64,000 nucleotides of DNA from Paracoccaceae bacterium. Lineage in GTDB: Bacteria > Pseudomonadota > Alphaproteobacteria > Rhodobacterales > Rhodobacteraceae. A model generated the notes under the pieces. That model ran no database searches, had not been told where the DNA came from, and saw only the letters and a program-made list of their open reading frames with translations. This document shows, one piece after another, positions 47,780-60,643 of this stretch; the first letter of the stretch is position 1; every line of letters starts with the position of its first letter. The translations under genes were made by a program, and so were the position numbers. The stretch covers positions 8,361-72,360 of the forward strand of contig JAGQRV010000018.1 of the NCBI GenBank assembly GCA_020425125.1. Direction: 5' to 3'.

Positions 47780-47825
47780 CTGCGATGTCTCCTTCGCCGT
47801 CCACCCGACGGCGCGGTTGAGGTTT

Positions 47826-47985
47826 GCCGTGCGGCAGGTCTCCTGGCTTGCGGGTCGTCGCGCTGCCGTTCCCTTCCCGGGCCGGGCCCAGTGGTGATGA
47901 ACGCGCGCTCTCCGCTCACAGTCGCGGGGGCGGCTGCGGTTTCCGGTCCCGGATTGGGTCACCGTCACCGCATTCCCATTTGATC
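47826..47985 (-). promoter_or_regulatory. Cobalamin riboswitch controlling cbtBA
   Basis: On the minus strand the leader shows GGGAATGCGGTG, then CCGCAGCCGCCCCCGCGACTGTGA with the conserved core, CCACTGG, CCGGGAAGG, and a perfect B12 box GCCAGGAGACCTGCC (47834-47848), in that order and at normal spacing. The fold lies 47 bases before cbtB. Binding of adenosylcobalamin should switch the transporter off, probably by hiding the ribosome binding site; no clear terminator is seen after it. The ends are approximate. Confidence 0.95.
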
Positions 47986-48225
47986 CCCGGCGCTTTGCGC
48001 CATTGGGGAACCACACACGGGCAGTTTCCGCCCAGGCATGAACACGGTCAAGGAGAATTCCCCGATCTGCGGGCAAATCCGCCCGGATCGCGCCGCAAGT
48101 GGCCAATATCTAGCGGTCGGCCTCGTGTTCCCCGCCAGATCGTGGGCATTTCCATTGACAGAGTGCCGCGGGACCGGGAACATTCCCCAAAAGGGCAGAC
48201 ACAGAATCAGGCAGGCGACCCAGCG
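47986..48225. other. Intergenic region before smc
   Basis: About 240 bases between the riboswitch 5' end and the smc start, holding the divergent promoters of cbtBA and smc. It is AT-richer than its surroundings at 48040-48200. I see no gene, repeat or clear operator in it. Confidence 0.5.
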
Positions 48226-57977: not shown

Positions 57978-58942
57978 TCCCGCCCGTGCGGCGCGTCGAG
58001 CGCGAGATCGGGCCTGACCGGCACGATCCGGTACGGATTGATGCTGGCATGGCTGTAATAGTAATGCCGCATGATGTGGTCGAACCGCACCGTCGCGGCG
58101 ATGCCGGGCCACTGGTACAGCTCGCGCGCATAGCCCCAGAGGTGCGGGTAGTCGACGATGCGGGCCCGGTTGCACTTGAAATGGCAGTGATAGACCGAAT
58201 CGAACCGCATCAGCGTGGTGAAGAGCCGCCAGTCGGCCTCGGTCAGCCGCGGCCCCATCAGATAGCGCCGCCGCGCAAGCCGGGCTTCGAGCCAGTCGAG
58301 CGTCTCGAAGAGGGGCCCGACCGCCTCGTCATAGGCCTCCTGGGTGGTGGCGAACCCGGTCTTGTAGACGCCGTTGTTGAGCGTCTCGTAGACCCGCGCA
58401 TTCACCGGCTCGATCTCGTCGCGCAGGTCCGCGGGCCAGAAATCGCGGCAGTTGCCGGTGATCCCGTCGAAGGCCGAATTGAACATGCGGATGATCTCGG
58501 CGCTTTCGTTCGACACGATCCGGGCCGTTCTCGTGTCGAACAGCACCGGCACGGTGACCTTGCCCGACACGCCGGGCTTGGCGGCGGCGTAGAGCTGGTG
58601 CAGGCAGGCGCGCCCGCCGATGCGGTCGCCGGTGGCGCCGGGAAAGTTGGTCGCGAAGGTCCAGCCGTTCTCCAGCATCTCGGGATGGACCACCGAGACG
58701 CCGATATGGGGGGCCAGCCCCTTGAGTTCGCGGAAGATCAGCGTCCGGTGCGCCCATGGACAGGCGAGCGAGACGTAAAGGTGATAGCGGCCGCTTTCCG
58801 CCGCGAAGCCGCCCGTCCCCGAAGGCCCCGGCGCACCATCCGGCGTGATCCAGTTGCGAAACCCCGCAGTATCGCGCACGAACCGGCCATCCGCCGCCGC
58901 GCTGTCCTCTTTCTGCCAGATTCCGTCGACAAGACGTCCCAT
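57959..58942 (-). CDS. Glutathionyl-hydroquinone reductase (Xi-class GST)
   Basis: A 327-residue enzyme of the YqjG/PcpF group, which removes glutathione from glutathionyl-hydroquinones. The catalytic cysteine is in SLACPWAHRTLI (near residue 60). VPVLFDTRTARIVSNESAEIIRMFN and the C-terminal RFDSVYHCHFKCN and DYPHLWGYARELYQ are typical of the Xi class. Length fits the family. GGGAG lies seven bases before the ATG. The gene is divergent from the cbiX cobalamin operon and overlaps the receiver gene at the 3' end. Confidence 0.94.
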   Translation of the reverse strand: MGRLVDGIWQKEDSAAADGRFVRDTAGFRNWITPDGAPGPSGTGGFAAESGRYHLYVSLACPWAHRTLIFRELKGLAPHIGVSVVHPEMLENGWTFATNFPGATGDRIGGRACLHQLYAAAKPGVSGKVTVPVLFDTRTARIVSNESAEIIRMFNSAFDGITGNCRDFWPADLRDEIEPVNARVYETLNNGVYKTGFATTQEAYDEAVGPLFETLDWLEARLARRRYLMGPRLTEADWRLFTTLMRFDSVYHCHFKCNRARIVDYPHLWGYARELYQWPGIAATVRFDHIMRHYYYSHASINPYRIVPVRPDLALDAPHGRDQLRVA

Positions 58943-59022
58943 CGCGATCTCCCTTCGTTGCCTGCAACATAGCGCGCCAGATCGGGATGGCTTCCTCCAC
59001 TGCGGCGCAGCGGGGCTGCGCG

Positions 59023-59152
59023 GGTGCACATCGCCGGCGCGACGGAATGGCGATTGCACCGCTTCCCGGCCTGTGCGACAGGGGAGGGGACGACGCCAAT
59101 TCGGCCAGAGAGGTTGGCGGCGGCGGGTCGACCCAGCCCGGGGACCTGAGCC
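59023..59152 (+). promoter_or_regulatory. Structured leader with B12-box-like element before the cbiX operon
   Basis: Three consecutive hairpins: a 12-bp stem with one bulged C (59023-59035 with 59049-59060), CCTGT-GCG-ACAGG (59070-59082), and CGCCAA/TTGGCG (59094-59099 with 59114-59119). They are followed by GGGTCGACCC (59125-59134) and AGCCCGGGGACCTG (59135-59148). The last resembles the B12 box (E. coli btuB: AGCCCGAAGACCTG, from memory). The canonical core found at cbtBA is not clearly present. It may be a divergent cobalamin riboswitch or another RNA element. Confidence 0.35.
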
Positions 59153-59223
59153 TCCGCATCGTCCGGGTGCGCCCCGCGCGCCCGCCGGCTTGTCTGGCCC
59201 GCGAACCGACGGGGAGACGAACG

Positions 59224-59460
59224 ATGCGCGCGAGACATGCCCTGATTGCGACCCTGCTGGCAGCGATCGCTGCCGGTCCGGCCGTGGCCCATCCCGGTCA
59301 CCTGACCGAGGTCGCGGGCCACAACCACTGGATCGCGGGTGCAGCGATTGCCGTGGCGGTCCTGATCAGCGCCTGGGCGGTCATCCAGGGTTCGCGCCAG
59401 ACCCGGGCCGAGGACGAGGCCGACGCCGGCACGGCGGACGCGCAGGACCAGGAAGGCTGA
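59224..59460 (+). CDS. Small histidine-containing membrane protein (DUF6732-like)
   Basis: A 78-residue protein: signal peptide or first helix (MRARHALIATLLAAIAAG, cleavage after AVA), a short HPGHLTEVAGHNHW segment with four histidines that could bind metal, one membrane helix (WIAGAAIAVAVLISAWAVI), and an acidic cytoplasmic tail. The design is like that of CbtB. It resembles, from memory, DUF6732 proteins of Rhodobacteraceae. It is the first gene of the cobalamin operon, five bases before cbiX, so a role in cobalt handling is likely but unproven. GGGGAG precedes the ATG. Confidence 0.72.
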   Translation: MRARHALIATLLAAIAAGPAVAHPGHLTEVAGHNHWIAGAAIAVAVLISAWAVIQGSRQTRAEDEADAGTADAQDQEG

Positions 59461-59464
59461 GATC

Positions 59465-60643
59465 GTGGCACGCACCGGCGTGATGCTCTGCGGGCACGGC
59501 TCGCGGGATGACGGGGCCGTGGCCGAGTTCGCGGCCCTCGCGGCGGCGCTCCCCGACTACCTGCCCGCTGACTGGATGCTGGCGCACGGCTATCTGGAAT
59601 TCGCCAACCCGGTGATCCGCGACGGGCTTGACCGGCTGCGCGAGGCAGGCTGCGAACGGATTCTCGCGGTCCCCGGCATGCTCTTCGCCGCGATGCACAC
59701 CAAGAACGACGTGCCGACGGTGCTGAGCACCTATGCCGCCGAACACGGGATCGAGGTCCGCTACGGCCGCGAACTGGGGATCGACCCCAAGCTGATCGCC
59801 GCTGCCGGCGCGCGGATCGAGGCCGCGCTGGCCGCGGCCGACGCGGCGCGGGGGCCGGTCAGCCGCCACGACACCTGCCTCGTGGTGATCGGCCGGGGCG
59901 CCTCGGACCCGGATGCCAACGCCAACGTCGCCAAGGTGGCGCGGCTCCTGTGGGAGGGGATGGGCTTCGGCTGGTGCGAGATCGGCTATTCGGGCGTGAC
60001 CTTCCCGCTGGTGGAGCCCTGCCTGACCCATGTCGCCAGGCTGGGCTACGCCCGGGTGGTCGTGTTCCCGTGGTTCCTGTTCTCGGGCATCCTGATCGAC
60101 CGCATCTACGGTTTCACCGACCGGGTCGCCGCGGCGCATCCCGGCATCGACTGGGTCAAGGCCGATTATCTCGGCGACCATCCGCAGGTGCTGGAGACCT
60201 TTGCGGAGCGCGCGACCGAGCTTGTCGGCGAGGTGCCGCCGCCCAATTGCGCGATGTGCAAGTACCGCACGCAGGTGCTGGGCTTCGAGGCCGAGGTCGG
60301 CGCGGTGCAGGAAAGCCACCACCACCATGTCGAAGGCCAGGGTGCCAGCGCGCCGGGCGCGAACGTGGCGGACTGCCCGCTCTGCGACAGCTTCTGCACC
60401 GGGGAATGCCGGCTGGAGCCGCGGCCGGCCGCGGCGGCAGGCGACCACTCCCATCACCATTCCCATCATGACCACCACCACGGCGGCCACGACCACGATC
60501 ATTCCCATGCGGATCACGATCATGACGGCGCCGGCCACAGCCATGACCCCGCGCATGCCGCATCCGGCCATCACCACCACCACGCGCCCTATCCTCATGC
60601 CGATCATCCGCTGGGGCCGGAAAGCGCCCGGCGGCGCGCCTGA
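59465..60643 (+). CDS. cbiX: Sirohydrochlorin cobaltochelatase-type protein with Cys/His-rich tail
   Basis: A 392-residue long-form CbiX. The N-terminal chelatase domains (about 1-245) show GVMLCGHGSRDDGAVAEF and LVVIGRGASDPDANANVAK, with HGSR carrying a metal-binding histidine. Then come two cysteine groups (CAMC near 261; CPLCDSFCTGEC near 303) that could hold an Fe-S cluster, as in CbiX-L of Bacillus megaterium. The last ~70 residues are extremely histidine-rich. The usual role is cobalt insertion into sirohydrochlorin in the anaerobic pathway, although cobN of the aerobic pathway is also present here. Start is GTG at 59465. Confidence 0.9.
   Translation: MARTGVMLCGHGSRDDGAVAEFAALAAALPDYLPADWMLAHGYLEFANPVIRDGLDRLREAGCERILAVPGMLFAAMHTKNDVPTVLSTYAAEHGIEVRYGRELGIDPKLIAAAGARIEAALAAADAARGPVSRHDTCLVVIGRGASDPDANANVAKVARLLWEGMGFGWCEIGYSGVTFPLVEPCLTHVARLGYARVVVFPWFLFSGILIDRIYGFTDRVAAAHPGIDWVKADYLGDHPQVLETFAERATELVGEVPPPNCAMCKYRTQVLGFEAEVGAVQESHHHHVEGQGASAPGANVADCPLCDSFCTGECRLEPRPAAAAGDHSHHHSHHDHHHGGHDHDHSHADHDHDGAGHSHDPAHAASGHHHHHAPYPHADHPLGPESARRRA

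Follow-up and report, generated by a model that had tools for sequence, protein, structure and literature searches.

What kind of RNA, if any, stands at the head of the cbiX-cob operon in this Paracoccaceae bacterium? Within the window, the whole 64,000-nucleotide stretch of DNA that was analysed, the original prediction placed three hairpins in a row at 59023-59152, ending close to a B12 box, and proposed either a divergent or decayed cobalamin riboswitch or another structured RNA that a standard model might miss. A structured RNA does precede the operon, in the form of a conserved, covarying element with no Rfam match; our covariance model R1 delimits it in the window as 77 nt at 59088-59164 on the plus strand (73.8 bits; 72.2 bits with a second model, R2, the window sequence being in the training sets of both). 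The predicted borders overlap this element, but 59023-59060 belong to the promoter. The features of the locus are as follows.

59054-59059, plus strand: -35 box TTGCAC, placed by the promoter register of the homologs
59077-59082, plus strand: -10 position GACAGG, a poor match, placed by the same register
59088-59164, plus strand: structured RNA element (models R1 and R2, covariation)
59089-59093, plus strand: 5' strand of P1, GACGA, pairing with 59159-59163 (window positions assigned by hand)
59095-59105, plus strand: P2 hairpin, GCC-AATTC-GGC (covariation)
59106-59115, plus strand: joining segment J2/3, CAGAGAGGTT, conserved roughly as CNGANNGG
59117-59120, plus strand: 5' strand of P3, GCGG, pairing with 59154-59157 (covariation)
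59125-59147, plus strand: P4 hairpin with a GA bulge (59130-59131), a CCC/GGG stem and a 5-nt loop (covariation)
59159-59163, plus strand: 3' strand of P1, TCGTC (covariation)
59187-59200, plus strand: downstream segment GGCTTGTCTGGCCC, complementary to P2-3'/J2/3
59211-59216, plus strand: probable Shine-Dalgarno sequence GGGGAG, read from the sequence
59224-59460, plus strand: gene for a small DUF6732 protein (PF20506; Pfam match)
59465-60643, plus strand: cbiX, sirohydrochlorin chelatase-like, with a Cys motif and a His-rich tail (Pfam match and reading of the sequence)

The three hairpins can be drawn but are no more stable than shuffled sequence, and the basis on which the region was first read as structured was mostly wrong. 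The MFE of 59023-59152 is no better than that of dinucleotide shuffles (z -0.51), 65 of 200 being equally stable, as are 125 of 200 for the minus strand; since shuffles match both strands, we rejected MFE stability as evidence for a structured RNA. The window's own MFE structure keeps P1 and a P3-P4-like arm and pairs P2 and J2/3 otherwise.

The covariation of stems in homologous leaders, which had been set beforehand as the test of the prediction, is found. The leader set comprises 28 DUF6732-bearing relatives among 195 genomes (the window's own is the 29th) and three cbiX leaders without DUF6732, and one motif is common to both kinds. Alignment A1, made with MAFFT only, holds 31 of the 32 extracted leaders (L030 was left out; for L030 and L034 the extraction used separate anchors). 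On these 31 leaders RNAalifold recovers 18 pairs, 11 of them with double changes; 95.2% of the cells are paired, and covariation is 0.327 as against 0.135 for shuffles and at most 0.122 for slid controls. The corresponding values for 100 R1-aligned sequences are 96.7% and 0.397, as against 0.148 for shuffles and at most 0.094 for slides. Alignments A2 and A5 were fitted to R1, so that pair counts from them lean towards that model; no result rests on A4 (35 of 50 sequences), and counts of sequences from related genomes are not counts of independent events. The fold is a three-way junction of P1, P2 and P3, the last carrying P4 with its GA bulge. This bulge is invariant in 31 of 31 aligned leaders and the P4 loop is mostly of 5 nt; in the 31-sequence consensus the loop sequences vary, and the bulge and the joining segment are conserved. 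What had been taken as a near-B12 box, 'AGCCCGGGGACCTG', consists of the loop of the covarying P4 and the 3' arm of that hairpin.

The promoter indicates where the transcript should begin. A TTG occurs in the -50 to -32 zone, mostly at -34 to -36, in 105 of 119 homologs against 12.5 in shuffled flanks, and 71 have a TATA-like box around -10 (5.7 shuffled). Both boxes are present in 67 of the 119 (0.8 shuffled), separated by a 17-nt spacer in 60 of these 67 (0.04 shuffled). From this conserved register, transcription is expected to begin roughly at the element's first base; in the window it would fall at about 59088, at P1. The first predicted hairpin (59023-59060) holds the -35 box and lies upstream of this expected start.

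Conservation extends well outside this strain, to many Rhodobacteraceae. A DNA search with 58943-59223 matched 15 of 195 genomes, the window's own included, and 12 of the other 14 match within query positions 141-266, corresponding to 59083-59208; blastn matches of 27 and 24 nt (L048 and L049) were taken as chance. Searched with R1, 144 of 394 Rhodobacteraceae genomes match at E<=0.1, and 112 of the 394, by hand count, carry the element at E<=1.2e-4, every one of these with a CbiX match downstream. Confident matches of the covarying junction all lie before cbiX. Among 126 fetched R1 matches, a set from which weaker family matches (E above about 0.005) were left out, 120 have CbiX downstream, starting 55-375 nt after the element, and DUF6732 is detected at 69 of these 120 loci; the six without cbiX all score under 32 bits. 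A family sample of 120 genomes includes 41 with CbiX, 39 of which have the element at E<=0.0015; the other two (G020 and G065) yield no element with R1, nor with R2 in 3.5-3.9 kb. One weak family match (G075, contig C174) lies, by coordinates, inside an RF00174 match.

A pattern scan of named genomes returned at least 119 stretches, of which the 80 listed are mainly from Rhodobacteraceae. Among the listed matches are Roseovarius, Yoonia, Jannaschia, Octadecabacter, Amylibacter, Thalassovita, Rubellimicrobium, Palleronia, Meridianimarinicoccus and Phycocomes, together with some alphaproteobacterial MAGs and one labelled as deltaproteobacterial. In class genomes R1 matches 36 of 385 at E<=0.1, mostly weakly (the window's own genome and G375, both Rhodobacteraceae, included). 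Five non-family matches precede cbiX, at E values of 4.7e-6 (G476), 4.3e-4 (G685), 4.6e-4 (G593), 0.0053 (G146) and 0.041 (G479). R2, built from A5 with the outliers L185, L187, L219 and L221 included, finds the same five at 1.3e-7 or better, all but G685 being in its training set. Of 327 class genomes, R2 matches 14 at E<=0.02: seven of these matches precede cbiX, three fall inside RF00174 matches (L427, L430 and L432) and four are unexplained; the hits in G681, G686, G158 and G669 have no RF00174 match. Three element-like stretches of about 30 bits (L180 4501-4574, L181 501-563 and L182 501-554), with no cbiX within 4.5 kb and no RF00174 match, are possibly orphan copies or chance.

The relation of this element to the cobalamin riboswitch can be approached from both sides. 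A canonical riboswitch does exist 11 kb away at cbtBA, as predicted (47816-48030, minus strand, 108.6 bits, CbtA downstream), and is the only RNA family in the window at gathering score. AdoCbl variant riboswitches sit in the 5' leaders of B12-related operons. A search of 58700-59500 with the 4227 families of Rfam 15, among which we presume the AdoCbl variant families to be, returned no relevant match at the element at E<=10, either to RF00174 or to a variant; the lone match nearby, sX6 at E=5.4, lies downstream and is at chance level. Likewise, the RF00174 model gave no match at E<=10 at the elements of five outlier genomes, and other Rfam families no relevant match at that threshold at two outlier elements. 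Hence, the element is not a member of RF00174. It also differs in build: R1 matches before cbiX measure 71-84 nt, whereas the canonical form has about 200; the element has a P1 of its own, at which the transcript is expected to start; and, compared by eye with the RF00174 alignment, it is without P5/L5 CCCCGCAACUG, which we take to be the kissing loop of the canonical riboswitch, P6 GCCACUG and the B12 box. The core of P5/L5 CCCCCGCAACUG and P6 GCCACUG is, again by eye, absent from the 31-sequence consensus and from the leaders inspected. Directly before cbiX, no RF00174 match occurs in 29 class cbiX loci (L219-L247, about 1.5 kb upstream) or in L216, and L219-L221 among those 29 carry the element. 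A comparison of coordinates places RF00174 on the cbiX strand, 8-9.5 kb further upstream, in four (G120, G152, G159 and G174) of the 15 class cbiX genomes, own aside, that were common to both searches; the rest have it on a different contig or at a great distance, or lack it.

The likeness consists of an association with B12-pathway genes and of a shared order of parts: a hairpin, a purine-rich joining segment and an arm with an extension hairpin. R1, whose training set is confined to Rhodobacteraceae elements, matches L179, L183 and L184, three of the six fetched loci without cbiX, in register at 27-31 bits, and these lie inside RF00174 matches of 90-108 bits. Within the window's cbtBA riboswitch, 47928-48002 on the minus strand is matched by R1, also in register, at 21.4 bits and by R2 at 23.1 bits (E=0.0012). 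On 61 canonical loci R2 gives ten matches at E<=1, four on the riboswitch in the right strand (L001 at 0.0033, L394 at 0.011, L403 at 0.22 and L426 at 0.30), one on a real element beside a riboswitch (L385) and five elsewhere; R2 was trained on outliers, so its matches to outliers and to canonical riboswitches are less independent. In the alignments P2 falls on the hairpin before AAAAGGGAA, J2/3 on AAAAGGGAA itself, P3 on the arm that follows and P4 on the extension in its loop, an in-register likeness to the canonical 5' half that sequence alone does not recover for the Rhodobacteraceae elements: a profile of that half (47 of 50 halves from 61 loci, without elements and without GACCCA-type extensions) finds none of them. 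It does find the element of outlier L221, which precedes hupE (PF04955) and then cbiX, at E=4.2e-4 and 15.1 bits with a bias of 7.9 bits, the best of 20 shuffled sets reaching 7.3 bits; this match covers the P4 arm and GCUGYCCCCG in register, excluding the hairpin and the joining segment. L185 is also found in register, at E=0.31, within the shuffle range.

Inspection by eye further reveals a P4-like loop extension, a bulge-CCCANNNN-GGG hairpin, in some canonical alphaproteobacterial riboswitches (L001, L179, L183, L184, L394, L430 and L432, with variants in L376, L385, L392 and L410); the bulge is GA, or UA with CCC/GCC AUCA GGG/GGC. At L385 (G013, contig C25) a canonical riboswitch (73377-73591, minus strand) and an element (73698-73769, plus strand) diverge, about 106 nt apart. 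A hand tally in an 80-genome sample counts 32 canonical riboswitches in 27 element-bearing genomes versus 125 in the other 53.

The reading we favor, and hold to be rather probable, is that in this element the cbiX-cob mRNA carries, at its very 5' end, a compact regulatory RNA acting in cis, which arose when an adenosylcobalamin riboswitch lost its 3' half and kept the 5' one. Such descent is supported by the outliers and by the weak but repeated in-register matches to RF00174, on which it rests. The counterparts kept would be the hairpin before GAAAAGGGAA, the GAAAAGGGAA joining segment, and the arm that follows together with the extension in its loop; P5/L5, P6 and the B12 box would have gone with the 3' half, and the 5' strand of the old P2 would have re-closed on the former 'GCUGCC' after that arm to make the new P1. 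As expected of a riboswitch in general, the element has a fold that is conserved, covaries and resembles an aptamer, and it lies in a 5' leader whose expected start follows from the promoter; it may act as riboswitches do, and descent from one is probable. The idea of a divergent or decayed cobalamin riboswitch survives in the likeness to the canonical 5' half but not as RF00174 membership; nor does the element look decayed, being conserved and covarying in more than 110 genomes. More tentatively, it might represent a new class, in which an AdoCbl riboswitch lost half its core, re-closed via its old P2, changed its ligand to cobalt, a precorrin or another corrinoid, and became the usual cbiX-cob switch of cbiX-bearing Rhodobacteraceae beside the canonical riboswitch at cbtBA.

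The chief competitor, which we consider unlikely, though less so than those that follow, is an independent RNA class, which would have just one hairpin module, GA-CCCANNNN-GGG, in common with the cobalamin riboswitch and would recognise a different ligand (Co2+, SAM/SAH or a tetrapyrrole precursor, for instance). The RF00174 core is absent and no Rfam covariance model gives a relevant match, the canonical sequence profile misses the Rhodobacteraceae elements, and the part most strongly shared is the P4 hairpin, whose module could have been borrowed; yet the hairpin, purine-rich joining segment, stem and extension come in matching order and register, and L221 retains CCGGUGCGG..ACCAAGGCCGGGGCUGUCCCCG as in the canonical form (L185 is similar, with a chance-level score). 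It is more doubtful still that the partner of the leader is a protein, whether encoded in the operon or acting as a general regulator of translation, and not a metabolite: the small size and variable loops, and a conserved bulge and joining segment that would suit a protein site, speak for this, but the element resembles a metabolite aptamer and its tie to cbiX holds with and without a detected DUF6732. Two further proposals we regard as highly improbable. A DNA-level operator or conserved promoter region with an incidental RNA fold would agree with the promoter abutting the element; however, the element comes after the expected start, and the compensatory changes and G-U pairs on the plus strand (one P4 pair goes from C-G to U-G in 22 of 100 sequences) fit pairing in RNA. 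A full cobalamin riboswitch with its missing parts in the rest of the leader would explain the relation to RF00174, but only 59 nt are left before the start codon in the window and no P6 or B12 box is seen by eye in the leaders inspected; such a hidden riboswitch is largely refuted by the lack of RF00174 matches at the window and outlier elements.

For 100 of the 120 elements with cbiX, the 12-mer comprising P2-3' and J2/3 was assessed, using mononucleotide shuffles, against the part of the leader that runs from P1 to the start codon (its first 60 nt if the start was uncertain). Its pairing is above chance, with a mean z of -1.63 relative to shuffled leaders and 40% below p 0.05, and the mean z of five other motif 12-mers in the same test lies between -0.18 and 0.30. 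A genome's own 12-mer averages 2.27 kcal/mol better than 12-mers swapped from other genomes and is better in 81%; in the window, GGCTTGTCTGGCCC pairs with P2-3'/J2/3 at -19.1 kcal/mol (shuffle p 0.005). In segments that start with GGCC and have the anchor pattern (46 loci for position S5), the base opposite the variable S5 is T in 19 of 26 when S5 is A, and C in 14 and T in 6 of 25 when it is G; at S8 and S9 the pattern is less distinct, T standing opposite S9=A in 40 of 81 and G opposite S9=C in 7 of 21. The downstream segment covaries with P2-3'/J2/3, which makes an alternative fold likely, and a helix that joins P2-3' and J2/3 to the stretch upstream of the ribosome-binding site, and excludes P2, is supported. 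The signal for masking of the Shine-Dalgarno sequence itself is weak: the whole leader pairs with that region at z -0.78 (23.5% below p 0.05; n=68, 68 of the 100 being used) and the S partner at z -0.45 (n=80), values weakly above chance, so that masking is something we infer. Pairing of the Shine-Dalgarno sequence with the 3' strand of P1 was rejected (z -0.02). We predict that a signal of the B12 pathway, be it a corrinoid, a precursor or cobalt, would stabilise the junction; this would free the downstream segment, which would then mask the ribosome-binding site and lower the translation of the genes for cobalt insertion and B12 synthesis when the product is plentiful.

The CbiX of the window has histidines in an N-terminal GHGSR and in AMHTKND, a Cys motif and a His-rich tail, and PMC7689651 describes such features for the CbiX-L cobaltochelatase, and HupE as a cobalt transporter that in some cyanobacteria is under an AdoCbl riboswitch. 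Given these, cobalt supply and insertion would be natural targets of the switch. The DUF6732 gene (59224-59460) occupies the place that hupE has in outlier L221 (848-1468), and both products have an N-terminal AHxGH stretch; judged from the sequences, DUF6732 may be a shortened HupE-like protein, and Pfam at E<=1 does not list HupE for the DUF6732 protein of the window.

No description of the element was found in the literature searched, which included PMC8632094 and PMC11109978. The former reports the Rhodobacterales motifs HRC-8-4 and uORFC-8-2, which are likewise RNA candidates restricted to this order, but which are located at ccoG/ccoP/hvrB and cysS and have a terminator-like stem or a uORF.

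The element gives a family that Rfam release 15 does not match at this locus. It is a small, conserved folded RNA, apparently a shortened and rebuilt relative of the B12 riboswitch, and a candidate new switch for cobalt insertion. If confirmed, it would be one of the few cases in which living intermediates show how one regulatory RNA descended from another, as well as a B12-pathway switch of about 77 nt. Cobalt insertion in marine bacteria that probably supply algae with B12 would then also gain a candidate regulator.
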